A stretch of 45,160 nucleotides of DNA. It comes from Paludibacteraceae bacterium. GTDB taxonomy: Bacteria; Bacteroidota; Bacteroidia; Bacteroidales; Paludibacteraceae. This document shows positions 3,496-45,160 of this stretch, piece after piece. The stretch lies in the NCBI GenBank assembly GCA_017444615.1, contig JAFSWF010000029.1, forward strand, positions 1 to 45,160, written 5' to 3'. The position numbers and the translations under genes are program-made. Every line of letters starts with the position of its first letter. Position 1 is the first letter of the stretch. The notes under the pieces are model-generated. The model saw only the letters and a program-made list of their open reading frames with translations, had not been told where the DNA came from and searched no databases.

Positions 3496-3558
3496 CTTAC
3501 AGGCCGCAGGCCGTTCTTACAGCGTAGCGGTCCTACAGCGTAGCGGTCAGCCCTTCGG
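3496..3558. repeat. REP-like tandem units with small inverted repeats between susD and the propeller gene
   Basis: The 104-nt gap holds tandem units of about 16-18 nt: ggccgcaggcc, then two near-identical copies containing tacagcgtagcggtc, then agcccttcgggct. The first and last units can each fold into a short stem (GGCC/GGCC and AGCCC/GGGCT). The tract begins at the susD stop codon. It could act as an mRNA 3'-end stabiliser or attenuator between the SusCD part and the downstream genes. That role is inferred from position only. Confidence 0.6.
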
Positions 3559-3559
3559 G

Positions 3560-5065: not shown

Positions 5066-5082
5066 AACATTCTCCTTTCTGT

Positions 5083-5105
5083 TTTCAATTTTCAATTTTC
5101 AATTA
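5083..5105. repeat. Period-7 junction repeat, CAATTTT theme
   Basis: Three successive units of the heptamer caatttt (the first slightly altered) fill the gap between susC and susD and end at the susC stop codon. The next unit would continue as caatta. The AT-rich tract reads in all frames for a short distance and produces a spurious N-terminal extension of SusD. Confidence 0.75.
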
Positions 5106-10896: not shown

Positions 10897-10910
10897 TAAA
10901 TTTATAAGGT

Positions 10911-10944
10911 TAAAATTATTTCTTTTTTAGATATTTTAAGCAAA
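10911..10944 (-). promoter_or_regulatory. Possible promoter for the 830-residue protein gene
   Basis: On the minus strand TTTG (10944-10941) and TAATTTTA (10918-10911) are separated by 22 nt, a near match to the Bacteroidota TTTG / TAnnTTTG promoter with a slightly long spacer and an imperfect -7 element. It lies 15 nt before the ATG. It would allow this gene and susCD to be transcribed separately from the two genes upstream. Confidence 0.4.
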
Positions 10945-10991
10945 TTTCTAAAATCACGGGATATATACATAGTATATATAGGGTGAGGTAT

Positions 10992-11034
10992 GATACGGGA
11001 ATACTTCGAGTTTACTTTGAGGCACTCCCGTATC
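10992..11034 (-). terminator. Hairpin after the 588-residue protein gene
   Basis: Perfect 9-bp arms GATACGGGA and TCCCGTATC enclose a 25-nt loop just after the stop codon at 11045. The minus-strand sequence after it is A/T rich (a tatata-rich stretch) but has no clean T run, so it may be a weak terminator or an mRNA-stabilising structure. Confidence 0.5.
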
Positions 11035-11044
11035 GCCTTTTGTA

Positions 11045-12811: not shown

Positions 12812-12830
12812 ACGATTTAAGAATTAAGTG

Positions 12831-15248
12831 TTAGTATTGAAATATCTTTTGTCCTTGTACACTATACATCGTCCCTTTGTACATCAGATAGAGTTGTCCG
12901 TTCCGCAAAATCTTCTGACTTCTGACATCTGACGGCTGAATACTCTCTATTCCCGTCGGTTCCTCCTCCGGCGCTTTCAAGGTGGGATAACTCGTTCCTT
13001 GCTCCCAAGCTGCACCCAAAGCCTCTGTTACCGTTCCGTCCGCAAATTGCGTCTTCGTAGCGGATTGCGCTCCTTGAGAATTATTATTGTGCTGACCGAA
13101 CACCGCCGGAGCCGAACCTTCCCGATACCAACAGTTAACCGCTGTTACCGAAGTGCCATTGAAGACTCCCGCGATAGCTCCGATATAAGAAGTCGTCGTT
13201 GCCCCGTCAAAAGGCGTCAACTTGCCGTAGAAATGGCAGTTCTCAATTTTTAACGAACGAGCCGAACTACTGGAGTTCACATATCCCAGCACACCGCCGA
13301 TACGCGCCCCCTTGTCTTGCTGCAATGCCATCGTACACGTACTATAGCTATCGCGAATAACCGCATTATAGCCATAGCCCATAATACCGCCGTAGATACC
13401 TTTATGGCGAATGCGCCATGTGCCACCCACATAACAACGCTCAATGACGGTAGCTGCCGCACCGCTCACATCCGCGTTGCGACCCACAATCATTCCCACT
13501 GATCCGGACACGTTAGTAAAAATAGGCATGCTCACCGAGCAGTCTTGTATCGTACCTGCTTCACTGCAACCGCAAAGAATACTGAACGCCTTGTTCTGCG
13601 TATCGTCCGTGCCAGAAGAGGGACGGTTGAAATAACTCTCCTCCGTACCTATAATCCGCAAACGCCGGATACTCGCATTCTGTATATAACCGAAGAGACC
13701 CACAAACGTATAGGCGCTCAGTGTCGGGTCATCCACATAGTAGATATTAAAACCGCTAATAGTGTGCCCCTTGCCGTCAAACGTACCGGTCCACGGATGA
13801 TCCTTGGTGCCAATAGGCGTTTTCCAACAATCCTGCTTGGTATGGTCCATGTTAAAATCTTCCGTCACCTCTGCATTCAAAGCATATGAACCTCCATTCA
13901 CCGCCTCGGCAAAGTCTTCCATATCCGCACGGCTTGCAATAGGATAAGTGATATCCGCTGCCTCGGCACCCACAAGAGACAGTTTATAAATCGTCTCATC
14001 CGCACCCATTGCCTCTGAGATGACGCGAATGGTATATGTCACCGTCGCTCCCTTCTCCGGCGTTACCAAGGGATAATACCACGGTTTCGTCACGTCCCGC
14101 TCTATATCCGCACCATACGCGTCAGTAATGTTCAGTTCCGCGTTATTATCTATAGGGTACGCATATAACGCAACAGGCGTACGCGTATAGTCCACCTTCA
14201 CCGTAAATGCCGTGTCTTCACCTAACACCACATTCTGTCCGTTCACTGTCATTCGCTTCAGATGACTCTCCGTACCCGGTTCGATTGTCTCATGTTCCGG
14301 TTCGCTAAAATTATCTGCCAACGATGTCACTGCATAAGGAGTCTCCACTGCCGCATGAACGGCGTGACGACACATATCCGCGCAGTAGTCCGTGATACTC
14401 TCCGGCTTCCATGTTACATCCAATGCACTTACACCGAAAATCTTCTCATACCAAATCAGGGAAGCAATATATCGACCATGGTTATAATGCAGATGGTAAC
14501 CGTCTCTATTCAGACGCTGACCCATATAACTCGTTCGCGCATTCTGCACAGCCGTACCGGCAGGTATCAGCAACTCCAACTCCGGATGATTCGCCATCAC
14601 TTGCTGCGCCGCGGCAATAATGCTGTCATACATCGTCTGCTGATTCTTGCCATAGAGTTTAAACGAGCTATAGGTTGAACCCTCATCATACGCCCAAGTC
14701 ATATAGAAACCGATTTTGACATTGGGATTAGAGCAGTTAGCGTGCACAAAATCAATCAAATGTTCCATATACGGCACATACGACTGATAGATACCCGCGC
14801 TATCATGGTCGGACTGAATAATCACCCAGTCCCACGGCTCATCCTCCATCGCCATCTTCAGGCTATACGTACCCAAACCTGTCGATGTAAACTGCCCATC
14901 CTTGAATTTGCGGTAGTTATACGGCAGCGTGTCATTGCGCTGAGACCAAGCATCATGCTGGCTCAGCCATGTGCCACCGCGGTACGGGTAACCGATGACG
15001 GCATCTACACCCTCCGCACCTAACAGAGGCTGCATATGTTGCTCCAAGGCATCGACCGTAAAACTATTGCCGATGCCCAAAATACGAACAGGCTCCGCCG
15101 AAACAGTGCCTACCATCGCAAACAAGAGAAAAACTAAAATACTTAGAAGACTTGAATTCCTTCTAATGGGGGGGGTAAATTGTTGATTATCAACAAGTTG
15201 CAACAACCCCACGTGAGTAATTGAACGTAGCATATTGTGCCCTTTCAT
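12831..15248 (-). CDS. DUF4886/SGNH-like hydrolase with beta-sandwich, GLUG-like region and C-terminal sorting-like tail
   Basis: 805 residues from the ATG at 15248. An upstream in-frame TTG (15263) lies inside the -7 promoter box and cannot be the start; a second ATG at 15233 is also possible. A hydrophobic signal segment (RRNSSLLSILVFLLFAMVG) comes unusually late, after about 30 residues. The hydrolase domain (about 50-310) begins VRILGIGNSFT, with the GNS block carrying the likely nucleophile Ser, and ends with RDGYHLHYNHGRY, holding the Asp/His pair. This is the DUF4886 version of the SGNH fold, often acting on acyl esters of glycans. A cadherin-like beta-sandwich (about 330-420) and a GLUG-like beta-helical region (about 430-760; GTFDGKGHTISGF, VGLFGYIQNA) follow. 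The tail is KILRNGQLYLMYKGTMYSVQ, then GQKIFQY. First gene of the block, behind a good promoter. Confidence 0.82.
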   Translation of the reverse strand: MKGHNMLRSITHVGLLQLVDNQQFTPPIRRNSSLLSILVFLLFAMVGTVSAEPVRILGIGNSFTVDALEQHMQPLLGAEGVDAVIGYPYRGGTWLSQHDAWSQRNDTLPYNYRKFKDGQFTSTGLGTYSLKMAMEDEPWDWVIIQSDHDSAGIYQSYVPYMEHLIDFVHANCSNPNVKIGFYMTWAYDEGSTYSSFKLYGKNQQTMYDSIIAAAQQVMANHPELELLIPAGTAVQNARTSYMGQRLNRDGYHLHYNHGRYIASLIWYEKIFGVSALDVTWKPESITDYCADMCRHAVHAAVETPYAVTSLADNFSEPEHETIEPGTESHLKRMTVNGQNVVLGEDTAFTVKVDYTRTPVALYAYPIDNNAELNITDAYGADIERDVTKPWYYPLVTPEKGATVTYTIRVISEAMGADETIYKLSLVGAEAADITYPIASRADMEDFAEAVNGGSYALNAEVTEDFNMDHTKQDCWKTPIGTKDHPWTGTFDGKGHTISGFNIYYVDDPTLSAYTFVGLFGYIQNASIRRLRIIGTEESYFNRPSSGTDDTQNKAFSILCGCSEAGTIQDCSVSMPIFTNVSGSVGMIVGRNADVSGAAATVIERCYVGGTWRIRHKGIYGGIMGYGYNAVIRDSYSTCTMALQQDKGARIGGVLGYVNSSSSARSLKIENCHFYGKLTPFDGATTTSYIGAIAGVFNGTSVTAVNCWYREGSAPAVFGQHNNNSQGAQSATKTQFADGTVTEALGAAWEQGTSYPTLKAPEEEPTGIESIQPSDVRSQKILRNGQLYLMYKGTMYSVQGQKIFQY
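12912..12944 (-). repeat. Period-7 CTGANNN repeat inside the SGNH-protein tail
   Basis: The plus strand carries heptads such as ctgactt, ctgacat, ctgacgg and ctgaata. On the coding strand they read TCAGNNN and encode SIQPSDVRSQ, immediately upstream of the conserved tail KILRNGQ. In the three paralogous tails this linker has a different sequence. Confidence 0.7.
15168..15175 (-). repeat. C8 homopolymer tract in the 5' coding region
   Basis: Eight consecutive G on the plus strand (C8 in the gene) lie between the presumed start codon and the hydrophobic signal segment, encoding Thr-Pro-Pro. A gain or loss of one base would disconnect the start from the signal peptide. Confidence 0.85.
15180..15196. 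promoter_or_regulatory. Perfect 17-nt dyad in the 5' end of the SGNH gene
   Basis: TTGTTGATTATCAACAA is a perfect inverted repeat (8-bp arms, 1-nt centre). It sits about 52-68 nt inside the gene from the ATG at 15248, just upstream of the C8 tract, and is followed on the plus strand by gttgcaac, another small dyad. It could be an operator or part of an RNA structure in the leader. Confidence 0.5.
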
Positions 15249-15260
15249 GGTTTCCGACCG

Positions 15261-15291
15261 CAAAGGTACTACTTTTTTTTGATATATGCAA
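15261..15291 (-). promoter_or_regulatory. Promoter of the exported-protein block
   Basis: On the minus strand TTGC (-33 element) within CCTTGCATATATC is followed after about 19-20 nt, including an A8 run, by TACCTTTG (15268-15261), an exact TAnnTTTG -7 element. The predicted start of transcription is only about 8 nt before the ATG at 15248, so the leader is very short unless the later start at 15233 is used. Confidence 0.75.
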
Positions 15292-15478: not shown

Positions 15479-17749
15479 ATGGAAAAGAGTGCGTTTACAG
15501 CGGCAGAAGAGCAAATGATCCAAGGTGAGTTTCGCGCCTTGCTGGACGATTATGCGCATACGCCCCACCGTCAAAAAGTGGAGTTGATTACGCATGCGTT
15601 CAATTTTGCACATAAGGCGCACTATGGCGTGCGTCGTCTAAGCGGCGAACCATATATTATGCACCCGCTTGCTGTCGCGCGCATATGCGTTCGCGAGATA
15701 GGATTAGGTAGCACGAGTATCTGTTCGGCGCTGCTGCACGATGTAGTGGAAGATACCGATTATACGGTAGAGGACATCGCCGGGCTCTTCGGCGATAAGA
15801 TTGCGCAGATAGTAGGCGGGTTAACGAAGATCAGCGGTGGTGTGTTTGGCAGTCAAGCCAGCGAGCAGGCGGAGAACTTCCGCAAGTTACTGCTGACCAT
15901 CAGCGATGATATCCGCGTGGTGCTCATTAAGATTGCCGACCGGCTTCATAACATGCGTACGCTGGGTGCGCAGCCCAAAGACAAGCAATACAAGATAGCC
16001 GGCGAGACGCAGTATATCTACGCCCCCTTGGCGCACCGTTTGGGTCTCTTCCCTATCAAGACCGAACTGGAGGACCTTAGCTTCAAGTACGAACACCCCG
16101 AACAATGGCAGGAGATTCACGATAAGTTAGAGGCTGTCAAGTCCGTTCAGATGGATAACTATGAGAAGTTCGCCGGTCCTATCCGTGAAAGACTGACAGC
16201 GATGGGGTATACCTTCACCCTCAAAGCGCGTATCAAGACCGTCTATTCCATCTGGAAGAAGATGGTCAGCAAACAATGTGCGTTTGAGGATGTGTACGAC
16301 CTCTTGGCAGTACGAATCATCTTCACACCGCATGATGATATGAGCGAGAAAAACCAGTGTTGGATGATCTACTCTGCTATCACGGAGATGTATCGTCCAC
16401 ATCCGGAACGTACACGTGACTGGATCTCGACGCCTAAGGCGAACGGCTATGAGGCCTTGCATGTGACGGTGATGGGTATTAACGGAGAGTGGATAGAAGT
16501 ACAGATACGCACCGACCGCATGCATGAGATAGCCGAACGAGGTCTGGCTGCGCACTGGAAATACAAGACCGGCGAGAACGATAACAGCGAATTGGATAAC
16601 TGGCTGCGCGAGATCAAAGAGATATTAGCCCACCCCGACAAAGATGCGATGGAGTTTTTGGGTATGTTCAAGCTCAACCTCTTTGCGCAGGAAGTGTTCG
16701 TCTTCACACCGAAGGGAGAGATTAAGACTATGCCAATGGGTGCGACCGCATTAGACTTTGCATTCCTGCTCCATTCGGAATTAGGCGAACATTGTATCGG
16801 TGCCAAAGTGAACCATAGTCTCGTACCGCTCTCTTACCAACTGAAGGGCGGCGACCAAGTAGAGATCATCACCTCCAACAGTCAGCATCCTACTCCGGAG
16901 TGGCTGAACATGGTCACCACCGCCAAAGCCAAGAACAGTCTCAACCAATATTTCCGTCGCGAGGAGCGTAAGTATATCCGTCACGGCGAGCGCCTGGTGC
17001 AAGACGCTATCCAGATGGACAAAGACCTGATGGTCAACCCCGAACAAGTGATTGAGCGGTTGGTTCAATACTACCACGTTGAGTCGCAGAGCGAATTGTT
17101 CCTGCATGTAGGTCAAGGCGTGATACGCCTCGATAACCTCCGCGAGATAGTGCTGCCTAAGCGTCCATGGTGGCAACGCATGCCGTTCTTAGGCGGAGGC
17201 AGTCAGCAGTCAGCCGTCAGCATTCAGCCGTCAGCTGATAACCGTCAACCGTCAGCCGTCAGCAATCAGAAAGAGAAGGGTAAGAAGAAACCGCATGCCA
17301 TTGTGCTGACCGATGATAACTTAGGCAAGGAGTATATCCTGAGTAGCTGTTGCCATCCTATCCCGGGCGATGAGGTATTAGGTTACTTGGCAGAGGACGG
17401 CAAGATGCATATTCATAAGATTGACTGCCGCGAGGCTACGCTGCTGAAGACCAGTTATGGCAAACGTATCTACTCCGCTACGTGGAACACCCACCGCGTA
17501 CAGTCCTTCATCGAGACCATCGAACTGAAGGGTATCGACACCTTTGGACTGTTCATCCAAGTACTACAGACTATCACCACCGCCTTTCATATCAACATCC
17601 GCTCCATCCATGTATCGAGTGAAGACGGTCTCTTCCAAGGCCGGCTGGAGATTTATGTATATGACCGACACGAATTGGACGAATTACTCAAAGCCCTCCG
17701 TGCCATCCAAGAGATAAAAGAAGTGAAGCGATTAATAATTGATAATTGA
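15479..17749 (+). CDS. Bifunctional (p)ppGpp synthetase/hydrolase, RelA/SpoT family
   Basis: 756 residues, the usual long-RSH length. The HD hydrolase domain (about 45-200) has YIMHPLAVA and LLHDVVEDT. The synthetase domain (about 230-380) has KARIKTVYSIWKKM, the RTRDWISTPKANGYEALH loop and EVQIRTDRMHEIAERGLAAHWKYK. RTRD at the RxKD/ExDD position is of the basic, bifunctional type. A TGS domain follows (about 400-465, VFVFTPKGEIKTMPMGATAL), then a regulatory region and a C-terminal ACT domain. It sets the alarmone level in the stringent response. Residues about 574-598 are a low-complexity insert (QQSAVSIQPSAD... QPSAVSNQ) coded by a period-7 CTGANNN tract between the TGS part and the conserved VLTDDNLG stretch. 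The final codons (RLIIDN) and the stop come from an AATTGAT-theme repeat. Confidence 0.97.
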   Translation: MEKSAFTAAEEQMIQGEFRALLDDYAHTPHRQKVELITHAFNFAHKAHYGVRRLSGEPYIMHPLAVARICVREIGLGSTSICSALLHDVVEDTDYTVEDIAGLFGDKIAQIVGGLTKISGGVFGSQASEQAENFRKLLLTISDDIRVVLIKIADRLHNMRTLGAQPKDKQYKIAGETQYIYAPLAHRLGLFPIKTELEDLSFKYEHPEQWQEIHDKLEAVKSVQMDNYEKFAGPIRERLTAMGYTFTLKARIKTVYSIWKKMVSKQCAFEDVYDLLAVRIIFTPHDDMSEKNQCWMIYSAITEMYRPHPERTRDWISTPKANGYEALHVTVMGINGEWIEVQIRTDRMHEIAERGLAAHWKYKTGENDNSELDNWLREIKEILAHPDKDAMEFLGMFKLNLFAQEVFVFTPKGEIKTMPMGATALDFAFLLHSELGEHCIGAKVNHSLVPLSYQLKGGDQVEIITSNSQHPTPEWLNMVTTAKAKNSLNQYFRREERKYIRHGERLVQDAIQMDKDLMVNPEQVIERLVQYYHVESQSELFLHVGQGVIRLDNLREIVLPKRPWWQRMPFLGGGSQQSAVSIQPSADNRQPSAVSNQKEKGKKKPHAIVLTDDNLGKEYILSSCCHPIPGDEVLGYLAEDGKMHIHKIDCREATLLKTSYGKRIYSATWNTHRVQSFIETIELKGIDTFGLFIQVLQTITTAFHINIRSIHVSSEDGLFQGRLEIYVYDRHELDELLKALRAIQEIKEVKRLIIDN
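17201..17270 (+). repeat. Period-7 CTGANNN repeat inserted in frame in relA/spoT
   Basis: About nine heptads of the form TCAGNNN (tcagcag, tcagccg, tcagcat and so on, complement CTGANNN) lie inside the coding region and encode a Ser/Gln/Val-rich linker. The same tract type occurs between genes at 22954 and 41347. In this orientation the units contain no stop codon. Confidence 0.85.
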
Positions 17750-17757
17750 TAATTATA
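17731..17757. repeat. Period-7 junction repeat, AATTGAT theme
   Basis: Successive units aattgat, aattgat and aattata span the last codons and stop of relA/spoT and the whole gap to the DUF1573 gene. The tgA of the second unit is the stop codon. Confidence 0.75.
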
Positions 17758-21494: not shown

Positions 21495-21552
21495 AAATTA
21501 AAAATTAAAAATTAAGAATATTCATTATTCATTAATCATTATTCATTGAATA
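21495..21552. repeat. Period-7 junction repeat, AAATTAA and ATTCATT themes
   Basis: The dnaB-asnS gap contains three aaattaa units followed by four units of attcatt/aatcatt type. The change of theme occurs mid-tract. The tract ends one base before the asnS ATG. Confidence 0.75.
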
Positions 21553-22953: not shown

Positions 22954-23024
22954 AGTCATCAGCCGTCAGCCATCAGAAAAAACCGAATACTGAAAGCTGA
23001 AAACTGAAAGCTGAATCCTGAATG
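22954..23024. repeat. Intergenic period-7 CTGANNN repeat, both orientations
   Basis: Immediately after the asnS stop come TCAGNNN units (tcagccg, tcagcca), then, after a short break, CTGANNN units (ctgaaag, ctgaaaa, ctgaatc, ctgaatg). The two halves are in opposite orientation and could pair imperfectly as a hairpin, perhaps acting as a 3' end. The remaining ~45 nt before the next gene are AT-rich; I see no clear promoter there. Confidence 0.8.
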
Positions 23025-23069
23025 CAAAATAATAATTATTAACCATAAAAACACTAACAAACAAATCGT

Positions 23070-28657: not shown

Positions 28658-30187
28658 ATGGAGTTAAGTGAACAAGAACAAGTAAGGCGGCAGAGTTTGC
28701 AAACTATGCGCGATTTAGGGATCGATCCCTACCCTGCAGCCGAGTATCAAGTAACAGGTTATTCAAGCGATATTAAGGCTGATTTTGACAATTGGGATGG
28801 CAAAGAAGTGCGCATCGCCGGTCGCCTGATGTCCAAACGTATTATGGGCAAAGCGTCTTTTATTGAGTTACAAGACTCGAAGGGACGTATTCAAGTATAT
28901 GTATCCCGCGACGACATACAGGCACCTGTTCCTGAGCCATCAGAAGTCAGCCATCAGCTTTCCGTTGAGCAACAAATGTACAATGTTGTCTTCAAGAAGT
29001 TGCTGGATATAGGTGATTTCATTGGCATTGAGGGATTTGTGTTCCGTACGCAAATGGGTGAGATTTCCGTGCATGCCAAAAAACTGACCGTGCTGGCTAA
29101 GAGCCTCAAGCCGCTACCTATCGTCAAATACAAAGATGGCATAGCCTACGATGGGTTCAATGACCCTGAGCAGCGGTATCGTCAGCGTTATGTAGACCTA
29201 GTGGTTAACGAAGGCGTGAAGGACACGTTCCTCAAACGCGCTGCTATCCTGCGCACCATGCGTCAAGTGTTTGACGAAGCCGGATATACAGAGGTGGAGA
29301 CCCCTATCCTGCAGCAAATTGCGGGAGGCGCAAGTGCTCGTCCGTTCATCACGCATCATAACACGCTGGATGTAGATATGTACCTGCGAATTGCGACAGA
29401 GTTGTATCTGAAGCGGCTTATCGTAGGTGGTTTTGAGGGTGTGTACGAGATTGGTCGTAACTTCCGTAATGAAGGTATGGACCGCAACCACAACCCCGAA
29501 TTCACCTGTATGGAGCTCTATGTGCAATACAAGGATTATAACTGGATGATGACCTTCACAGAGAACCTATTGGAGCGTATCGCTATCGCTGTGAATGGGA
29601 CAACCAAGGTGCAGATCGGAGATCATGAGGTGGATTTCAAAGCCCCCTACCGCCGTCTTCCCATCCTGGATGCCATCAAAGAGAAGACCGGATTGGATTT
29701 GGCTACCATGGACGAAGATGCTATCCGCATAGAAGCGAAGAAACTCGGTATTGAAGACACGGAACATATGGGCAAAGGTAAACTGATTGATGAGATTTTT
29801 GGCGAGACCTGCGAAGGAACCTTCATTCAGCCTACTTTCATCACCGATTATCCGGTCGAGATGAGTCCGTTAACAAAGCTTCACCGCTCCAAACCCGGTT
29901 TGACCGAGCGCTTTGAGCTGATGGTGAATGGCAAGGAGTTAGCGAACGCATATAGCGAGCTCAATGACCCGATTGATCAATACAACCGCTTCGTGGAGCA
30001 AATGAAATTGTCGGATAAGGGAGATGATGAGGCCATGGTTATTGATCACGATTTCATGCGTGCACTTGAATATGGTATGCCCCCCACCTCCGGAATCGGC
30101 ATTGGCATTGACCGTCTGGCCATGTTCATGACCGGACAACCGACCATTCAAGAAGTGCTTCTCTTTCCCACCATGCGCCCTGAATAA
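28658..30187 (+). CDS. lysS: Lysyl-tRNA synthetase, class II
   Basis: 509 residues. The OB-fold domain (VRIAGRLMSKRIMGKASFIE, about 52-150) is followed by the class II core: RYRQRYVDL, TPILQQIAGGASARPFITHH, motif 2 YEIGRNFRNEGMDRNHNPEF and motif 3 GIGIGIDRLAMFMT. It charges tRNA-Lys. Residues about 90-107 (PVPEPSEVSHQLSVEQQ) form an extra loop between the RDDI strand and NVVFKKLLDIGDF. Part of this loop is coded by a period-7 CTGANNN tract, as in RelA and SecA. Confidence 0.97.
   Translation: MELSEQEQVRRQSLQTMRDLGIDPYPAAEYQVTGYSSDIKADFDNWDGKEVRIAGRLMSKRIMGKASFIELQDSKGRIQVYVSRDDIQAPVPEPSEVSHQLSVEQQMYNVVFKKLLDIGDFIGIEGFVFRTQMGEISVHAKKLTVLAKSLKPLPIVKYKDGIAYDGFNDPEQRYRQRYVDLVVNEGVKDTFLKRAAILRTMRQVFDEAGYTEVETPILQQIAGGASARPFITHHNTLDVDMYLRIATELYLKRLIVGGFEGVYEIGRNFRNEGMDRNHNPEFTCMELYVQYKDYNWMMTFTENLLERIAIAVNGTTKVQIGDHEVDFKAPYRRLPILDAIKEKTGLDLATMDEDAIRIEAKKLGIEDTEHMGKGKLIDEIFGETCEGTFIQPTFITDYPVEMSPLTKLHRSKPGLTERFELMVNGKELANAYSELNDPIDQYNRFVEQMKLSDKGDDEAMVIDHDFMRALEYGMPPTSGIGIGIDRLAMFMTGQPTIQEVLLFPTMRPE
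28931..28963 (+). repeat. Period-7 CTGANNN repeat inside lysS
   Basis: Units tcagaag, tcagcca and tcagctt lie in the coding region and encode SEVSHQL. The coding strand is again the stop-free TCAG orientation. Confidence 0.75.
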
Positions 30188-30222
30188 AATGGTACATGGT
30201 AAATGAATAAATGGTAAATAGA
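30188..30222. repeat. Period 7-8 junction repeat, AAATGGT theme
   Basis: Units aaatggt, acatggt, aaatgaa, taaatggt and aaataga fill the lysS-gpsA gap and abut the gpsA start codon. The tract contains several ATG triplets out of frame or in short open frames, which complicates start calling. Confidence 0.75.
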
Positions 30223-33065: not shown

Positions 33066-33104
33066 GCACATATGTGGTTCAAACCTGCATATGTGCTATT
33101 TTTT
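33066..33104. terminator. Hairpin terminator between convergent genes
   Basis: GCACATATG and CATATGTGC (9-bp arms) with a 13-nt loop are followed on the plus strand by tatttttt. It ends the pgi/PepSY-like transcript. The minus-strand yitT stop lies inside the T tract, so the structure may also serve as the 3' end of that transcript. Confidence 0.85.
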
Positions 33105-34067
33105 GATTGTGTCAAAGCCTGCGCCGAAGACTCCGGCGACGTCTGCCATACTTACAAACGCGTTCGGGTCAATATCATGGATGATGCTTAACACAAGCGA
33201 ACTCTCCGGCTTGCGAACGAGTACAGAAATGACCTTAACAGGTTTTTGGGAGTACCAGCCGGTGCCATCTAACACCGTTACACCGCGGTTAACCGTTGTA
33301 TTAATCGCCGAAGCTATCTCTTCATACTTAGAGGAATAAATGAGGAAATGAACAGAGCGATGGAGTCTGGCAAGCAACCAGTCGACTGCCAGCGTATAAG
33401 AAAGCGTCATGCACACACCATAGAGCACGCGTTTGATGTGCAGGAAAAGCGGGTCTCCGCCTTCGCGGAGCATTGACTCGGGTAGCGGCAAGAAGAACGC
33501 CGAAAGGATGATGACAACATCGCAAGCTAACATGATATTACCAAGCGATATATTGCGGTAGTGATTAATGATCATCGCCAATATATCCGTTCCTCCGGAT
33601 GAACCGTTTGCTGCCAATACAACACCCAGACTAAGCCCAAACACAAAGCCGCCTATGATTGCGCCTAACCAAGGGTCAGCGATGATGGGTTGGGGCAGGA
33701 TAGGAATGACACGGTACCAGAACGTGATCGCACCTACGCCTACCATCGTTCGGATGCAGAATCGCCAACCTACCGTCAAACCTGCAATGACAAGCAAAAT
33801 AGCATTGAATACAAACGTCGTCAGCCAAACAGGGATAGCGCCGTTATACTCTGCAAAGAGCGAAGGAAACATACCTTCTGTGACATAATAGATAATGGAA
33901 CAAATACCGGTTAACCCTCCACCCACGAAAGCATGGGGCAATAACACCCAATTGACCATCAGCGCCATCGGGAAGATGCCAAAGATGATCATCAGATACT
34001 CAAACACCGTGCGCGCCGTAGAAGCACTCTGCGCATTGTGTGGGTTGACGAAATGACTAAAGCGCAT
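33096..34067 (-). CDS. YitT-family membrane protein (first of two paralogues on the map)
   Basis: 323 residues from the ATG at 34067; the in-frame TTG two codons upstream adjoins a repeat and is unlikely. About six membrane segments cover residues 25-230, including VNWVLLPHAFVGGGLTGICS and FGLSLGVVLAANGSSGGTDI, the YitT (DUF161) signatures. The cytoplasmic C-terminal DUF2179 domain (about 245-323) reads ITVNRGVTVLDGTGWYSQ to HDIDPNAFVSMADVAGVFGAGFD. The transport or sensing function is not established. It lies 41 nt after its paralogue, last in the gcvP unit. Confidence 0.88.
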   Translation of the reverse strand: MRFSHFVNPHNAQSASTARTVFEYLMIIFGIFPMALMVNWVLLPHAFVGGGLTGICSIIYYVTEGMFPSLFAEYNGAIPVWLTTFVFNAILLVIAGLTVGWRFCIRTMVGVGAITFWYRVIPILPQPIIADPWLGAIIGGFVFGLSLGVVLAANGSSGGTDILAMIINHYRNISLGNIMLACDVVIILSAFFLPLPESMLREGGDPLFLHIKRVLYGVCMTLSYTLAVDWLLARLHRSVHFLIYSSKYEEIASAINTTVNRGVTVLDGTGWYSQKPVKVISVLVRKPESSLVLSIIHDIDPNAFVSMADVAGVFGAGFDTIKK

Positions 34068-34070
34068 GGC

Positions 34071-34110
34071 CAATTATCAATTATCTATTATCTATTATCT
34101 ATTACACATT
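34071..34110. repeat. Period-7 junction repeat, CAATTAT/CTATTAT theme
   Basis: Units caattat, caattat, ctattat, ctattat and ctattac fill the gap between the two yitT genes and end at the stop codon of the upstream one. A pure heptad period is visible. Confidence 0.8.
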
Positions 34111-35032
34111 ACTTGCCGTTTGCCATAGGGTCAAAGCCCTGTCCGAAGACGCCTCGCACTTGACTTTGGCTGACAAAAGCGTTGGGGTCAATCGCCCGCA
34201 CAAGGCGGAAGATAGTAGCCGATTCGTACGAGCGGGCAATGGTGGTTACCACCTTCATCGGTTGTTTGTTATAACCTCCCTCCGCCTCAAGGAACGTACA
34301 ACCACGGTGTGCCTGAGTAATGATGGCCTCGGCTATCTCATCGGCCTTTGAGGAGAAGATCATGAATTGTACGGACTGCCGCATGCGGTTCATCACCCAG
34401 TCTACGGCCGTCGAAGCCATGAACGTATAAGTGAGACCGAAGAGAATTTTCTCCACTGCCCCTTGAAAACCTGCTGCTTGGATAGTAGGCAGGAAGAAAG
34501 CGGAGGAAATGACGGTCATATCCGTAAAGAGCAACACGCGACCCATCGGTAGATGGTGATACTTATTAACAATCATCGCCACTATATCCGTGCCGCCGGT
34601 CGAACCGTTATTCAAGAAGCAGATACCCAAAAAACAGCCGGTAAAAAGACCTCCGATGACCACTGCCATAAAGGGGTCTGTCAAGAGAGGGACAGGTGCA
34701 ATCGGTATCACTTTAAGCCATATGGTGAGCCACGCTACACCCCAGATGGTACGGAGGGCATAGCGCCAACCTACGGTAAGTGCGGCGATGATGAGTAGTA
34801 CCACATTGATAAGGGCGCTACTAAGCCAAATAGGCACGTATGTATTCGTCGCAAAATAAATAATCTCACACAAACCGGTCACTCCTCCGCCGACGATGGC
34901 ATGCGGGACGAGAAGTTGGTTGACCGTTAGGGCATAAGGAATAGTACTGATGACGATCAGCAAGAACTCCTTAATCGTGATCCACGGCAGGGTGCGGCGA
35001 TACTGCTTGAGTTGTTCTCTAATATTACTCAT
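34109..35032 (-). CDS. YitT-family membrane protein (second paralogue)
   Basis: 307 residues. Same architecture as its neighbour: membrane segments with VNQLLVPHAIVGGGVTGLCE and FLNNGSTGGTDIVAMIVNKY, then a DUF2179 domain with RGCTFLEAEGGYNKQPMKVV and IDPNAFVSQSQVRGVFGQGFD. The two proteins align along their length (GGG(L/V)TG, NGS(S/T)GGTDI, DPNAFVS) and arose by tandem duplication, though they have diverged well. The start ATGAGTAA overlaps the gcvP stop by 8 nt, so it is translationally coupled to gcvP. Confidence 0.88.
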   Translation of the reverse strand: MSNIREQLKQYRRTLPWITIKEFLLIVISTIPYALTVNQLLVPHAIVGGGVTGLCEIIYFATNTYVPIWLSSALINVVLLIIAALTVGWRYALRTIWGVAWLTIWLKVIPIAPVPLLTDPFMAVVIGGLFTGCFLGICFLNNGSTGGTDIVAMIVNKYHHLPMGRVLLFTDMTVISSAFFLPTIQAAGFQGAVEKILFGLTYTFMASTAVDWVMNRMRQSVQFMIFSSKADEIAEAIITQAHRGCTFLEAEGGYNKQPMKVVTTIARSYESATIFRLVRAIDPNAFVSQSQVRGVFGQGFDPMANGK

Positions 35033-38900: not shown

Positions 38901-39818
38901 ATGATATTAAATTTTATTACATGGGATGTTGACCCGATTTTGATTCATATCGGGGACGGAGGAATACGTTGGTACGGATTACTGTGGGCCATCGGTTTAT
39001 ATGTATGTTGGGCGGTGAATGAGCGCATGTACAAACGCGAGCATTGCCCCGAAGAATGGGCCGACCAGTTGTTCTTTTGGATGGCAGCGGGAGTGATCAT
39101 CGGTGCTCGCTTGGGGCATTGCTGGTTCTACGAGTGGCATCAATATGGCAAGCCTTGGTACCTGTTCGGATGGGAGTTCACTTACCGTAATCCGTACATT
39201 GAGAACCCCTTATTACTTTTACGCATATGGGAAGGCGGACTCAGTTCGCACGGAGGCGCCATCGGACTAATCACCGCGGCTATTCTGCTCAATAAATACC
39301 GGTATAGCAAATACCCCCAATATGGTACCAGTTGGCTTTGGATACTCGACCGCTTGTGCGTAGGCGTTTGTTTCACCGCCTTCCTCATTCGCCTCGGCAA
39401 CCTCATGAATAGTGAGATTTATGGTGGTCCGACCGACCTTCCGTGGGGATTTATTTTCGTTCGGGACGGACAAACAGTGCCGTGCCACCCCACACAAATA
39501 TATGAGATGCTCTATTGCTTGGTAGCCTTGGCGGTTACATGGCCGATGTATTGGAAGACCGACGCGCGGCGGAGAGAAGGACTGTTACTCGGTGTGTTCT
39601 TAGAGATCATCTTCGTTACCCGTTTCCTGCTTGAATTCATCAAAAATGACCAAGAAGCTTTCGAAGCCGGTCATATGCTCAATATGGGTCAATGGCTGAG
39701 CGTACCGTTCATCGTATTAGGAATCTATTTAATCATACGGGCATACAGGCGTCCCTTATCGCCGGTGGTGGAAAAACAGCCCGAAAGCCTCGACCCAAAA
39801 TATCGAAACAAAAAATGA
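38901..39818 (+). CDS. lgt: Prolipoprotein diacylglyceryl transferase
   Basis: 305 residues from the ATG at 38901. An in-frame GTG at 38883 overlaps a palindrome and gives a polar extension that the family lacks. Seven or so membrane segments. The Lgt signatures include IRWYGLLWAIGLYV, SSHGGAIG (HGG) and IRLGNLMNSEIYG, which matches the family signature around G-x-x-GN-x-x-N-x-E-x-x-G. CHPTQIYEMLYCL and RFLLEFIKNDQ follow. It transfers diacylglycerol to the lipobox cysteine, the first step of lipoprotein maturation, needed for the SusD-type and DUF5689-type lipoproteins seen here. Inner membrane. Confidence 0.95.
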   Translation: MILNFITWDVDPILIHIGDGGIRWYGLLWAIGLYVCWAVNERMYKREHCPEEWADQLFFWMAAGVIIGARLGHCWFYEWHQYGKPWYLFGWEFTYRNPYIENPLLLLRIWEGGLSSHGGAIGLITAAILLNKYRYSKYPQYGTSWLWILDRLCVGVCFTAFLIRLGNLMNSEIYGGPTDLPWGFIFVRDGQTVPCHPTQIYEMLYCLVALAVTWPMYWKTDARRREGLLLGVFLEIIFVTRFLLEFIKNDQEAFEAGHMLNMGQWLSVPFIVLGIYLIIRAYRRPLSPVVEKQPESLDPKYRNKK

Positions 39819-39847
39819 CAAATGGTAAATGACCAAATGGTAAATAA
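39817..39847. repeat. Period 7-8 junction repeat, AAATGGT theme, containing the fmt start
   Basis: Units aaatgac, aaatggt, aaatgac, caaatggt and aaataaa run from the lgt stop into the fmt coding region. The fmt ATG and the first codons (MVNDQMVNK) are made of repeat. Confidence 0.75.
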
Positions 39848-40783: not shown

Positions 40784-41365
40784 TTGGACTACCTTTCGCT
40801 CATAGATAAATACTACAACGATTCGCCGGAGTTAAAGCACGTTCTCCTGACGCATAGTCGTCAAGTGGCAGACCGCGCGCTGAAGATAGTAGATGCGCAC
40901 CCCGAATGGCTAAACGCCTCCGGAGGCTCTCCGGCAGTGGATAGAGCGTTCGTTGAAGAAGCGGCTATGCTGCATGACATCGGTATCATCTATTGCTCGG
41001 CACCGAAAATCTACTGCGTTGGACCGCATAAATACATTGAGCACGGTTACTTAGGCGCCGAACTGCTGCGAGCCGAAGGCTTGCCCAAGCATGCCTTGGT
41101 AGCCGAACGGCACACCGGAACGGGTATTACCATTGAGCAGATAGAACGCGAAGAACTACCTATTCCTGAACGCGATTATTGTCCACGCTCGATCGAAGAG
41201 AAAATTATTTGTTACGCGGATAAATTCTATAGCAAAAGCCACCTCGGCGAAGAGGTTTCCATTGACAAAATCAAGTATAATATCTGGAAATACGGCCATG
41301 AGGCCTTCGTTCGATGGAACGAACTCGTCCAACTCTGCGGCGAAAATCTGAATACTGAATACTGA
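40784..41365 (+). CDS. HD-domain protein, probable metal-dependent phosphohydrolase, likely TTG start
   Basis: 193 residues if it begins at TTG 40784 (LDYLSLIDKYY). There is no ATG or GTG between the fmt stop (40769) and the conserved N-terminus; a longer open frame would overlap fmt by about 90 nt. HD-domain residues are HSRQVADRA (about 25), AMLHDIGIIYC (HD, about 70) and KHALVAERHTGTG (about 110), followed by EEKIICYADKFYSKSH. This is the small HDIG-type family found in Bacteroidota; the substrate is unknown. The C-terminus NLNTEY and the stop codon are coded by CTGANNN heptads, so the original end of the protein may have been replaced. Weak ribosome binding site. Confidence 0.82.
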   Translation: MDYLSLIDKYYNDSPELKHVLLTHSRQVADRALKIVDAHPEWLNASGGSPAVDRAFVEEAAMLHDIGIIYCSAPKIYCVGPHKYIEHGYLGAELLRAEGLPKHALVAERHTGTGITIEQIEREELPIPERDYCPRSIEEKIICYADKFYSKSHLGEEVSIDKIKYNIWKYGHEAFVRWNELVQLCGENLNTEY

Positions 41366-41406
41366 CGACTGAATACTGATGGCTGAATGCTGAATGCTGA
41401 CGGCTA
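41347..41406. repeat. Intergenic period-7 CTGANNN repeat
   Basis: The cleanest tract of the family: eight consecutive heptads of form CTGANNN (ctgaata, ctgaata, ctgacga, ctgaata, ctgatgg, ctgaatg, ctgaatg, ctgacgg) with no indel. It joins the convergent HD-protein and DUF3078 genes and supplies the HD-protein stop codon. Confidence 0.9.
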
Positions 41407-42579
41407 CCTAAACTTATGGGCAAAGCCGATGGACAGTAACTCGCGGAATTGAATCTTGGCGCGGTCATCGCCTTTCATGATCACCGACGAGTCATAGCGC
41501 GGATGAAGCGTCAGACGAGCGGACATAAAGCGATTGATGATAAAATCGCAATTGACCTCCAAATCTATTTCTACGTTTTTATAGTTGGTGTAGGTATAGA
41601 ATTTTGCTTCTAACGCCACCTCACGCACGGGTTTCCATAGATATTCCACACGTATGGACGAACCAATATTATTCTGAGTCTGTTGTCCTTTCTCCAAGCC
41701 ATATTCAGTCACCGTCACCCGCGTGGTATCCATGATATGAATCATCTTATACGATATCGGTGAGACAGCGATGGAGAGGTTCTTCACCGGCTTATAATCA
41801 ATACCGAATGCTGCCGTAAAACGCACCGGCGCAAAGGGACCACTCTTCAAATCCATCGAATTGGATTTATAGGTAGGCAGCAAACGCGTCTCAAAATCTA
41901 CCGAAATAGAGGTAAACACTTTCGGTACGATTCGCAGGTTCGCCTTGCTGTAGATGCGAAACAAGTCATCCGTGGTATTCACTTTATGCAGCGAGTCGGC
42001 AGAGATGGTTGAACCGCCCATACGCCATTCGCCGTAGTTCTCCCACGTAAAACGTTCACGAATATAACTGACTTGACCTTTGGCGATACCGAGGGCTGCG
42101 AACGACGATGAACCGCCTTGGTACCAGTTAGGGGTGACATAGTTCTGTGTTATTTGCGCCATCAACGTGGCCTCGCGCCGCCAAGGCGAACGCATGTTAC
42201 GAATCGCTTGCAGCACATCATTGCGGTCCTCCACCTCGTCCTTCACCCACGATTTCTCAACCTCTATCGTCGGTATTCGCGCTTGTACTTGCTGCACGAA
42301 CTGCTCATTGACCACCCGAATCGAATCTAATCGTGCGTTCTCGCGTTGCAGCGAATCGAGCCAGTACTGCTCTTCCGGCGTCAAGGCATAAGCTGAGTCA
42401 TCTTCGTGCAGTTCAACGCTCTGTTTAGCCACCAGATCTAACAGCATCGCATCCATATCCACGGTCGCTTTCTGTTCCGCCACCTTAAACGTATCCGGAT
42501 ATAACAGGATACTATCGTTTTGTGCCGCCAGTTGTCCGGCGGCACAAAGCATAAGTACTATGAGTATCTTACATCTCAA
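41404..42579 (-). CDS. Exported DUF3078-family protein
   Basis: 391 residues from TTG at 42579 (signal peptide LRCKILIVLMLCAAGQLAA, cleaved before QND). No ATG is available upstream; an earlier in-frame TTG (42627) would add residues coded by repeat DNA. An acidic helical segment (about 55-120, with SLQRENARLDSIRVVNEQFV) is followed by the DUF3078 beta-rich domain: ITQNYVTPNWYQGGSSSFAA, NYGEWRMGG, DDLFRIYSKANLRI and an outer-membrane-like end (LLSIGFAHKF). Such proteins are Bacteroidota-specific, probably outer-membrane beta structures of unknown role. It lies 58 nt downstream of secA on the same strand. Confidence 0.83.
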   Translation of the reverse strand: MRCKILIVLMLCAAGQLAAQNDSILLYPDTFKVAEQKATVDMDAMLLDLVAKQSVELHEDDSAYALTPEEQYWLDSLQRENARLDSIRVVNEQFVQQVQARIPTIEVEKSWVKDEVEDRNDVLQAIRNMRSPWRREATLMAQITQNYVTPNWYQGGSSSFAALGIAKGQVSYIRERFTWENYGEWRMGGSTISADSLHKVNTTDDLFRIYSKANLRIVPKVFTSISVDFETRLLPTYKSNSMDLKSGPFAPVRFTAAFGIDYKPVKNLSIAVSPISYKMIHIMDTTRVTVTEYGLEKGQQTQNNIGSSIRVEYLWKPVREVALEAKFYTYTNYKNVEIDLEVNCDFIINRFMSARLTLHPRYDSSVIMKGDDRAKIQFRELLSIGFAHKFR

Positions 42580-42580
42580 A

Positions 42581-42624
42581 ATCAGTCTGTACTCTGTCAG
42601 CGAAGCGGTCTGTATTCTGTCAGG
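42581..42624. repeat. Divergent period-7 repeat between secA and the DUF3078 gene
   Basis: Heptads ctgtact, ctgtcag, ctgtatt and ctgtcag, broken by cgaagcggt, precede the DUF3078 start. They differ from the CTGANNN consensus by one base per unit and I treat them as the same class. Confidence 0.55.
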
Positions 42625-42637
42625 CAACGCCGGTCTA

Positions 42638-45160
42638 TTAAATGCCTGCGTTTAACTTACCGTGGCATTGCTTGTATTTCTTGCCGGAGCCACACGGACA
42701 CGGATCATTCGGACGCGGTTTCTTATCCACATGAATCGGTTCGGGACGTTGCTGTGCACGGGTGTCGTGACCTGCCGCTTGTGCCTGACCGGAAGCCTGT
42801 GCCGCTTGTTGCACCGTATCTTTCTGTGAACGGTAACGACTATAGTCCGTACGGCGTTGTTGCTGAGCTTGCTGCACGCGGTCGGGTTCCTGCGTGTGGA
42901 TCTGTCCGCGAAGCAGAATAGAGATCGCACGACGGTTAAGCGCATCCAGCATGGCCTTGAAGATATGGAACGACTCTAACTTATAAATCAACAGCGGGTC
43001 TTTTTGCTCATACGACGCATTCTGCACAGACTGCTTGAGGTCATCCAACTGACGCAGATGCTCTTTCCACTCATCGTCAATCACATAAAGCAACATACGT
43101 TTCTCAAACTCCTTCACCACCTCTTTGCTGTGCGTTTCGGCAGCCGTTTTGAGGTTGACGGCGATGTTATACACTTTCTTGCCGTCGGTAATAGGTATGA
43201 GAATATTCTCGTACATTTGTCCCTTAGTCTCGTAGATATATTGGATATTCGGGTCAGCCACTTGTACCAATTTATCCATACGCCGCTTGAAGCTATCTAA
43301 CGCAGCCTCAGCCAGTTGTTGACTCAATTCAGCTTTTTTACCCATAAGGAAGGTATCTTCGTCGTACGGCGGTTCAATAGCGAAGGTCTGCATCACATCG
43401 TAACGGAAACCTTCGTAATCATTGGCTTGACGGGCGTCGAGGAACAGGTTCTCTGCCATCTCATAAATCATGTTTGTGATATCCACACCGATGCGCTCAC
43501 CCATCAACGCGTGACGACGTTTCGCATAGATAAGATTACGTTGTTGGTTCATCACATCATCGTACTCAATCAAGCGTTTACGGATACCAAAGTTATTCTC
43601 CTCCACTTTCTTCTGTGCACGCTCGATGGAAGAAGAAATCATGGAGTGTTCAATCATCTCTCCTTCTTGGAAGCCCATACGGTCCATGACGGAAGCGATA
43701 CGATCCGAACCGAACATACGCATCAGATCATCCTCCAACGAAACATAGAACACAGACGAACCCGGGTCACCTTGACGACCGGCACGTCCGCGTAACTGCC
43801 TGTCCACGCGGCGACTCTCGTGACGCTCGGTACCGATGATGGCGAGACCTCCGGCCTCTTTGACCTCCGGCGTCAACTTGATATCGGTACCACGACCTGC
43901 CATGTTGGTAGCAATCGTTACTACGCCTGCACGACCGGCTTCGGCTACCACTTGCGCCTCTTGCTGGTGCAACTTAGCATTCAGCACGTTGTGCTTGATA
44001 TGACGGCGGTCGAGCAACTTACTCAGCAATTCGGATATCTCCACGCTTGTCGTACCTACCAAAACCGGACGACCTTGGCTGACCATCAACTCTATCTCGT
44101 CGATGACGGCATTGTATTTCTCGCGTTTGGTACGATAAATACGGTCGTTCATATCGTTACGAGCGATGGGTTTATTGGTCGGGATAACCACAACATCCAG
44201 TTTGTAGATGTTCCAGAACTCTCCGGCTTCCGTCTCGGCCGTACCGGTCATACCGGCAAGTTTGTTGTACATACGGAAATAGTTCTGCAGGGTGATGGTA
44301 GCAAACGTCTGCGTCGCGCCTTCTACCTTCACGTTCTCTTTCGCTTCTACGGCTTGGTGCAAACCGTCCGACCAACGACGACCTTCCATGATACGACCGG
44401 TCTGTTCATCCACGATCTTCACCTCTCCGCCATCGATGATGTAATCCACATCTTTCTCAAACAGCGTGTACGCCTTGAGCAACTGATGAACGGTATGTAC
44501 GCGTTCGGACTTAATCGAATAGTTCGTCAGAATATCGTCTTTCTTCTGCTGTGCTTCTTCGGCTGAAATCTGATGGCTGACAGCTGATTGCTCTACCTCT
44601 GCCATCTCCGTTCCCACATCCGGCAGCACAAAGAAATTCGGGTCATCAGTGGTACCCGTCAGCGCGTCGATACCCTTATCCGTCAACTCAATAGACTTGT
44701 TCTTCTCATCAATCACGAAATAGAGTTCGTCGGTTGCTATGTGCATATTTTTCTCATTCTCTTGCAGATAGAACTCTTCCGTCTTCTGCATCCGCACCTT
44801 GATACCGGGTTCCGAAAGGAACTTAATGAGCGCTTTCGATTTCGGCATACCTTTGAACGAACGGAAGAGTGCCAACTCGCCTTCCTCGCGTTCTTTCTCG
44901 TCTGCCGAACCCATTTTGGCTTTCGCTTCCGCCAACAATTTGGTAGTCAACGTCGTCTGTTGACGAACCAAAGCCGCTACGCGGTCCTTGTATTCATCGA
45001 ACATCTGATCCTCGCCGCGGGGCACCGGACCACTGATGATCAACGGCGTACGGGCATCATCAATCAAGACTGAGTCCACCTCATCGACGATGGCGTAGTT
45101 ATGTCCGCGTTGCACTAAGTCAAGCGGACTAATGGCCATATTATCACGCAGATAATCGAA
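42638..45160 (-). CDS. secA: Protein translocase ATPase SecA, N-terminus beyond the window edge
   Basis: The frame stays open to the last base (FDYLRDN before [12 protein letters not shown]), so the visible 840 residues lack roughly the first 200-plus, including Walker A. Visible motifs: [19 protein letters not shown] (DEAD-type Walker B region), [52 protein letters not shown] (arginine finger region), and the C-terminal zinc site [16 protein letters not shown]. It drives preprotein export through SecYEG. A stretch coded by CTGANNN heptads (QSAVSHQIS) lies in the loop between [15 protein letters not shown] and the [17 protein letters not shown] helix. A Gln-rich linker ([25 protein letters not shown]) precedes the zinc motif. 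Confidence 0.96.
44561..44590 (-). repeat. Period-7 CTGANNN repeat inside secA
   Basis: Plus-strand units ctgaaat, ctgatgg, ctgacag and ctgattg correspond to TCAGNNN on the coding strand and encode SAVSHQIS. Reading frame and orientation match the copies in relA/spoT and lysS. Confidence 0.75.

Follow-up and report, generated by a model that had tools for sequence, protein, structure and literature searches.

Degenerate seven-nucleotide tandem arrays of varied wording and rapid turnover in a Paludibacteraceae genome

Short, degenerate tandem arrays whose main constant is a step of 7 nucleotides are spread through the genome of a Paludibacteraceae bacterium. In a genome sample of 337,638 bases we count 117 tracts of self-similarity at a lag of 7, against a mean of 0.6 in shuffled sequence. 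The tracts lie both between and within genes, are often absent from orthologous sites and, between sister species, differ in length and in wording. Their broad kind, the bacterial heptanucleotide simple sequence repeats, is known; the variety of themes and their turnover seem to be the new part. We propose, with moderate confidence, that slippage-type duplication keeps generating the arrays, by preference in steps of 7 nt, that they turn over fast, and that purifying selection filters them.

Several described systems can be set beside these arrays. In heterocystous cyanobacteria the STRR heptanucleotides likewise include a number of distinct tandem 7-mers within a single genome. REP/BIME elements are paired imperfect palindromes tied to a RAYT transposase, whereas the units here are, by inspection, direct 7-nt repeats; as the first-pass annotation of this DNA had said, neither are they CRISPR, the 7-nt units being contiguous and without spacers. 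That annotation knew of no description of a heptad class, a statement overtaken by accounts of heptanucleotide repeats already published (PMC4679880, PMC4692102). Excerpts of MacGregor 2015 (PMC4679880) describe TAACTGA direct repeats in Beggiatoaceae, cyanobacteria and five Bacteroidetes that are mostly intergenic and that, in the Beggiatoaceae genome, for the most part closely precede start codons; they stop all frames one way and leave a frame open, read as LSVISYQ, in the other direction. Indels that distinguish a pair of close Cyanothece strains come there mainly in 7-nt increments, and repeat-free close relatives have shorter intergenic regions. TAACTGA is a rotation of CTGATAA and so falls within the CTGANNN pattern of our arrays, and both are 7-nt direct repeats. 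The Beggiatoaceae genome, however, has in these excerpts one dominant exact heptamer whose single-base variants are rarely repeated (PMC4679880), whereas here there are dozens of degenerate themes, units vary within an array, orthologous wording differs and many arrays lie in genes. As to placement before start codons, 30 of 51 co-directional junction tracts of this genome (30 of 109 period-7 tracts overall, 53 of which lie inside genes) end at most 11 nt before, or overlap, the next start; these junctions are short, and a good number of the tracts reach the stop of the upstream gene as well.

The GGGAATC and GGGGA(T/C)T heptads of Xanthomonas and Nostoc, described as G-rich and quadruplex-forming in excerpts of Rehm 2015 (PMC4692102), which also mention three Calothrix heptanucleotides, are likewise abundant, intergenic and variable in length and sequence between related genomes; they are a single G-rich unit, not the themes found here, and no GGGNATC consensus unit occurs among our 117 tracts. 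Mrazek et al. 2007, as reported in excerpts of PMC4679880 and PMC4692102, found heptamers to be the most abundant or an over-represented unit of long simple sequence repeats in most genomes surveyed; those repeats are runs longer than statistically expected, whereas ours are degenerate arrays of alternating unit variants. Heptamer-derived bacterial satellites, such as (GATAGRA)n in Chloroflexus aurantiacus (PMC6749651, in part), resemble our arrays by description in that heptamers seed abundant tandem families, but with one unit in that species. The tandem repeats of Borgs, according to passages of PMC9879509, evolve fast, form independently within and between genes and create new protein segments; their in-gene units are all divisible by three, whereas in-gene arrays here retain the 7-nt unit. 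High density of short tandem repeats in Bacteroidota is noted in a survey spanning all life (PMC12699852), which, under the terms tried, does not mention heptanucleotides. Beyond the cited papers, the open-licence literature yielded no account of a genome with dozens of degenerate heptad themes, of a period kept while the wording of orthologous junctions changes, or of the CTGA-H-D-D grammar described below.

Why heptanucleotides are favoured as long repeat units in bacteria has, in the literature covered, drawn only a conjecture about polymerase contact length, credited to Mrazek et al. in excerpts of PMC4679880. The present genus suits a test of 'why seven': density is high, sister species occur with and without an array at one site, the preferred period differs among the congeners sampled, and arrays in conserved genes make a 7-nt step costly. 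The grammar adds a concrete constraint for any model.

The window, that is, the whole stretch analysed, is one entire contig (C8) of 45,160 bases from a source genome of 1.6 Mb in 72 contigs, 76% complete; with 20 further stretches it makes up the genome sample (21% of the genome). Tracts were ungapped local match runs at lags 2–24, scored +1 for a match and −1 for a mismatch and counted at a threshold of 12 for the own-genome lag spectrum and 13 for gene-location counts and congener spectra; five dinucleotide-preserving shuffles in 300-base blocks served as control. Counting tracts was preferred to plain lag-match means, which over crude open-reading-frame classes diluted the signal (intergenic lag 7, 0.290; other lags, 0.25–0.29).

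The annotation had proposed a chromosome-wide class of period-7 repeats and suggested looking for a lag-7 excess over shuffled sequence. It was largely right, and the signal is stronger than it claimed: the excess at threshold 12 is overwhelming, and at threshold 20 there are still 48 tracts against a shuffle mean of 0. Other non-harmonic lags give 0–24 tracts at threshold 12 (lag 6, 10; lag 8, 24; lag 9, 13; lag 11, 15; lag 12, 10; lag 15, 14; lag 16, 20; lag 22, 13; lag 24, 13), with zero at lags 5, 10, 13 and 19, and the harmonics are raised (73 at lag 14, 33 at lag 21). The window alone, at the same threshold, has 8 tracts at lag 7, 6 at lag 14, 3 at lag 21 and 0 or 1 at each non-harmonic lag from 2 to 24. 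Because 93 of the 117 tracts remain after masking every CTGA/TCAG pair at 7-nt spacing, many themes contribute to the excess, and the class is not one fixed heptamer in the manner of TAACTGA. The pattern CTGANNNCTGANNNCTGA matches 231 times in this genome and its reversed form 6 times, a fair control for this genome only, because the reversed form is itself a heptad theme in some congeners. The idea that the period and not the sequence is constant holds broadly, with the qualification that themes recur above shuffled units and that tracts of periods 8 and 11 also exist.

The tracts of the window, with scores at lag 7 unless stated, are as follows.

41348–41405, plus strand: the focal array, eight CTGANNN units; score 29.
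22954–23049, strand not assigned: a pair of arrays that face each other, beyond the gene taken for asnS; scores 10 and 26.
21495–21547, plus strand: dnaB–asnS junction array, AAATTAA three times and then ATTCATT four times; score 30.
17199–17272, minus strand: in-gene CTGANNN array of a SpoT/RelA-like gene (15479–17749; Pfam); score 35.
17731–17754, plus strand: AATTGAT array over the stop codon of the SpoT-like gene; score 15.
5070–5104, minus strand: TTTTCAA array at the junction of minus-strand genes 3560–5065 and 5103–8306; score 20.
34071–34112, minus strand: CAATTAT/CTATTAT array between minus-strand genes 33096–34067 and 34109–35032; score 27.
12912–12939, plus strand: CTGANNN units in a minus-strand gene (12831–15116); score 15; missed earlier.
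28940–28957, minus strand: three CTGA cores at 7-nt spacing in the gene read as lysS; sub-threshold; missed earlier.
44561–44592, plus strand: CTGANNN units inside secA (Pfam), two overlapping three-core matches; Tandem Repeats Finder (TRF) period 14; missed earlier.
30187–30219, plus strand: AAATGGT tract of mixed 7- and 8-nt spacing, following the gene taken for lysS; TRF; lag 7, 8; lag 15, 10.
39813–39845, plus strand: period-15 (8+7) AAATGACC/AAATGGT tract before a formyltransferase gene (Pfam); TRF period 15.
1386–1423, strand not assigned: weak mixed 7/8-nt TTTACTA tract; TRF scores 33; lag 7, 7; lag 8, 11; lag 15, 10.

Ten tracts had been listed earlier, and we rescored each by its ungapped lag-7 score inside the listed span ±10. 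Six are clean period 7, among them those listed at 5083 (score 18) and at 22954–23022 (score 23); three mix 7- and 8-nt spacings, including that at 39817 (lag-7 score 8, lag-15 score 12); and a CTGTNNN tract at 42581 fails, with a lag-7 score of only 5 and no TRF row. The strongest tract of the window, 17199–17272, had been missed; on the minus strand it reads GSQQSAVSIQPSADNRQPSAVSNQ. The HD-domain gene has its stop at 41365; the focal array starts within the final codons of that gene and extends to the 3′ end of a convergent DUF3078 gene (41404–42552, minus strand); in relatives it is not present or is worded differently. The first of the facing arrays consists of TCAGCC units (22954–22976, score 10) and the second of CTGANNN units (22979–23022) that pass into A/T-rich sequence up to 23049 (score 26). 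The cores in lysS encode the linker SEVSHQLSVE in the OB-fold region, and the units in secA fall under a lag-7 threshold of 10. Among the named genes, SpoT/RelA, DUF1573, DnaB, SecA, formyltransferase, HD-domain and DUF3078 have Pfam support; two are class II tRNA synthetases by Pfam, assigned to AsnS and LysS by eye, and the gene at 23070 is, also by eye, a putative TonB-type receptor. An Rfam scan of the window at gathering thresholds gave no match.

Gene junctions, where the class had been placed, hold 56 of 109 period-7 tracts; the other 53 lie inside genes (threshold 13, simple hexamer-based gene models). By density the preference is about tenfold, with 171.5 tracts per 100 kb between genes and 17.4 within, and relatives show 68.1 and 5.7, with 43 of 119 tracts in genes. 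Units of 3n nucleotides are tolerated in a reading frame and those of 7 shift it, yet in-gene tracts of this genome number 53 at period 7 against 4 at period 6, 7 at period 9 and 5 at period 12, and in relatives 43 against 5, 10 and 10. This dominance is better explained by a bias in how tracts are generated than by selection for the period, and supports a mutational origin of the 7-nt step, since selection within genes should favour multiples of three.

A selected function, in which the arrays would be regulator sites or stop-codon insulators between genes, seems to us distinctly improbable, although it accounts for features that slippage does not. As 7 is coprime to 3, units bearing TGA or TAA give stops in all frames, and TGA/TCA is the top enriched trinucleotide of our units (64 of 109 against 28.4 expected) and the second, after TTG/CAA, in those of relatives (62 of 152 against 32.9); excerpts of MacGregor 2015 (PMC4679880) propose the TAACTGA repeats as translational regulators. 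At co-directional junctions of this genome, 36 of 51 tracts start near the upstream stop, in the interval from 27 nt before it to 10 nt after it. Across our genome and relatives, co-directional tracts stop more frames in sense in 53 cases and in antisense in 20, with 28 ties (binomial p 1.4e-4), a bias that is partly built in because gene models absorb a stop-free array beside a gene end. Against a function stand the 53 of 109 tracts inside genes and the periods 10 and 13, which are coprime to 3 but absent from our sequence and few in relatives (10 and 7 tracts). On the latter ground, and because in-gene arrays favour 7, frame selection was rejected as the main cause of the period. The stop-free orientation of all 33 of 33 in-gene CTGA arrays was dropped as evidence, as the opposite orientation would terminate the gene model.

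Divergent junctions in relatives hold 23 of 46 period-11 junction tracts compared with 15 of 76 at period 7. Six of 17 relatives also have period-11 arrays, with differing 11-nt units, ahead of the SpoT-like gene, at these positions.

L121, 7728–7824: period-11 array upstream of the SpoT-like gene.
L123, 7789–7844: period-11 array at the same place.
L125, 7553–7681: period-11 array at the same place.
L126, 6027–6070: period-11 array at the same place.
L127, 7686–7723: period-11 array at the same place.
L129, 1290–1330: period-11 array at the same place.

Within arrays, units resemble one another less with distance, the identity of units one to four apart being 0.829, 0.812, 0.777 and 0.730 in 48 of our arrays and falling from 0.825 to 0.715 in 107 arrays of relatives. 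A 14-nt super-unit was rejected as a general feature: identity at 14 nt is on average slightly lower than at 7 nt, being higher in 22 of our 48 arrays and in 33 of the 107 from relatives. In 46 tracts mismatches tend to fall at the same unit positions (1242 against 927, sd 32), a clustering that fits constraint and concerted spread alike.

Arrays with at least three CTGA at 7-nt spacing obey a strong but not absolute grammar, CTGA-H-D-D, in genes and at junctions alike. Among 139 own units the first free position is G once, the second C twice and the third C five times, and among 100 units of relatives the counts are 3, 3 and 0; in single CTGANNN of this genome the same letters make up 19%, 27% and 21%. 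In genomes of other families with CTGA heptads (G041, G052, G053), among the matches listed, the grammar is not kept. Neighbouring CTGA units share the same NNN in 15 of 95 pairs and second neighbours in 11 of 51, with a pool expectation of 8%. Slippage with neutral drift predicts neither the grammar nor this unlikeness of neighbours.

Themes are also shared between loci, counted as units that differ at no more than one position: sharing exceeds that of shuffled units in 5 of 5 genomes, with 8.9% against 2.2% within this genome, which tells against slippage. Dispersal would explain this sharing, as it would the 231-to-6 excess of CTGANNNCTGANNNCTGA: units or arrays would be copied between loci, through gene conversion, ectopic template switching or some mobile process, and a genome's library of themes would overwrite its junctions. 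Two small samples agree, with more sharing within than between species in G035 (16% against 2–9%) and G026 (37% against 2–7%). In G000, G001 and G007, sharing within the genome (9–11%) is not clearly higher than between species (4–11%), so that much of it is not genome-specific. Between species, sharing exceeds that of shuffled units in 9 of 10 pairs, in several only slightly. The 44 own CTGA arrays share no unit order beyond chance (two-unit strings, 28 against 26.7 expected; three-unit, 1 against 0.6; four-unit, 0), and en-bloc copying among them was therefore discarded. We rate dispersal as unlikely, while noting that it too covers something that slippage leaves out.

Orthologous sites show arrays to be present or absent, and differently worded, among species. 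At the dnaB–asnS junction, readable in 29 of 30 loci and scored alike for periods 5–13, an array occurs in 15 of 29 species, this one included, with best period 7 in 15 of 15 and units that include AAATTAA, TTTTTGA, ATTTGAG, AGTTGAA, AATTGAC, AAAGACA, ATAGACA and TTGATAG; the absence of any array above threshold in the other 14 of 29 speaks against a selected function. At the junction of asnS with the receptor-like gene, among 30 loci, period 7 is found in 6, period 8 in 1, period 6 in 1 and none in 22. The focal HD–DUF3078 junction, readable in 28 of 30 loci, has period 7 in 7 (two of them sister species sharing one array), period 8 in 1 and none in 20, of which 5 are uncertain, with an estimated gap over 160 nt, and several have gene ends too close for an array.

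Two proteins show junction-type repeats turning into linkers. The SpoT-like linker was followed in 17 relative loci, found via the protein in Paludibacteraceae or uncultured Bacteroidales assemblies whose body sites, where stated, are reticulum, omasum or rumen: its units are of CTGA type in the window, GGTTACG type in L122 and AGGCGAA type in L121 and L131, and in the other 14 of 17 relatives nothing exceeds the threshold at periods 7, 8, 10 or 11. The LysS linker varies within the genus, being of TCAG type in the window (sub-threshold), an AACAGC-type array in L231 and a missing insert in L232; eight other-family genomes have no array in lysS, and the window's lysS likewise has none above threshold 10.

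Close genomes, whose comparison for copy-number change the annotation had advised, reveal change in 7-nt steps. Two metagenome-assembled loci, L124 and L130, are 98.7% identical (217 mismatches in 18,244 columns). Of the six indels between them, one lies at the edge of the alignment, four are 1–2 nt long and the sixth adds a 7-nt unit to a heptad array. Two sister-species pairs (G088/G083 and G111/G112), compared over 81 kb of anchored colinear sequence, have an array in at least one species at 53 sites, 23 of them classed as period 7; the classes are automatic, and some alignments within arrays are debatable. At 9 of the 23 neither length nor theme has changed; at 3 the theme is kept and the length differs by a multiple of 7 (14, 7 and 21 nt); 5 are present in one species only, and theme switch, other length change and change of best period account for 2 each. 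Whole arrays are reworded at the same junction, GGTGAAA against GGTGTAC (a site counted among the 2 best-period changes) and GGTTAGA against GATTGAA, and at one junction the period is 8 in one species and 7 in the other. Locus L194 of G088 also carries, at about 741 and 1496, period-15 TACTTGG/TCACTTGG-type arrays of alternating 7- and 8-nt units, where G083, the sister species, differs by four and by one unit of 15 nt.

The 7-nt changes in copy number and the decay of unit identity with distance fit the slippage-like origin with drift that the annotation had entertained. Exact-multiple change with the theme kept, at only 3 of 23 sites, weighs against slippage, and rewording or an 8-to-7 change at a sister site asks for loss and re-formation, or else for import. 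Replacement of whole arrays at one site is what dispersal would produce, and an array of G112 is 98% identical over 46 nt to one at a different locus of G111.

The slippage reading that we prefer would run as follows. Local recurrent duplication, by slipped-strand synthesis or short template switching, would make short degenerate tandem arrays, with 7 nt as the lineage's preferred step and 8 and 11 as lesser ones. A stretch so duplicated would gain and lose 7-nt steps and acquire substitutions, and arrays would be lost and re-formed, rather than imported, on the time scale of sister-species divergence. Orthologous junctions would often keep the period and change the wording because the step recurs and the sequence does not. 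Purifying selection would then set where arrays survive: between genes, across stop codons, within genes in stop-free orientation, and in tolerant linkers such as those of the SpoT-like and LysS proteins. We infer slippage as the molecular event from these patterns, and the polymerase may be the source of the number 7.

Alternatively, a sequence-directed or dedicated heptad-writing process in the genus might insert 7-nt units that follow a grammar (CTGA-H-D-D in the main class) and come from a genus-wide repertoire, and might rewrite the wording of a junction array while keeping the step, much faster than point mutation of the flanks; we regard this as quite unlikely.

MutS repairs small loops, and larger ones escape it. 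Loss of mutS was ruled out as the cause of the arrays, the gene being matched in 36 of 37 genomes (35 above the curated cut-off; the lone genome without a match is 54% complete). Its presence agrees with the escape of larger loops from repair and gives no account of 7 rather than 5, 6 or 9.

A density comparable to that of the window's genome, which the annotation had expected of relatives, is found in some congeners, G035 among them; it is low in others such as G011, and nil in G028 and in the four other families sampled. At threshold 13, lag-7 tracts number 28 in 77 kb of G035, 12 in 80 kb of G001, 10 in 80 kb of G026, 7 in 33 kb of G007, 4 in 70 kb of G020, 1 in 27 kb of G013 and zero in 80 kb of G028; four genomes of other families (G037, G039, G044, G057; 61–80 kb each) have zero. 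G011, in 80 kb, has 11 tracts at lag 8, 7 at lag 11 and only 3 at lag 7, and G009 has 13 at lag 11, 6 at lag 10 and 5 at lag 7, so that the preferred period is 7 in G000, G035, G001, G026 and G007, 8 with 11 in G011, and 11 in G009. Of 36 relatives in the same genus, 29 contain three successive CTGANNN (2 to 252 matches) and 7 do not; among 24 genomes from other families, 11 contain them (1–29 matches). Themes vary by species, because the reversed pattern AGTCNNN equals or exceeds CTGANNN in some congeners (157 against 74 in G007; 59 against 0 in G009).

An artefact of metagenome assembly or binning has a negligible chance of explaining the arrays. Relatives are metagenome assemblies where so titled, and our genome is itself fragmentary and incomplete; but the arrays are short (mostly under 100 nt), are flanked by conserved genes, turn up in numerous separate assemblies and vary by 7-nt steps.

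Two further features of the window were noted by eye. Tiny hairpins capped by GNA-type triloops (GCGAAGC, GCGTAGC, GCCGCAGGC, CCCTTCGGG) follow one another in strings at 3505–3560 and 42596–42612 and in L046 near 16115, and look like a separate dispersed element; the string AGCG[AT]AGCGGTC occurs 10 times in the own sample and its reversed form 0 times. Three large adjacent minus-strand genes at 8404–15263 have alike C-terminal ends (NGVRYNVMGQ, NGVRYTLQGQ and KGTMYSVQGQ) that look like a sorting signal.
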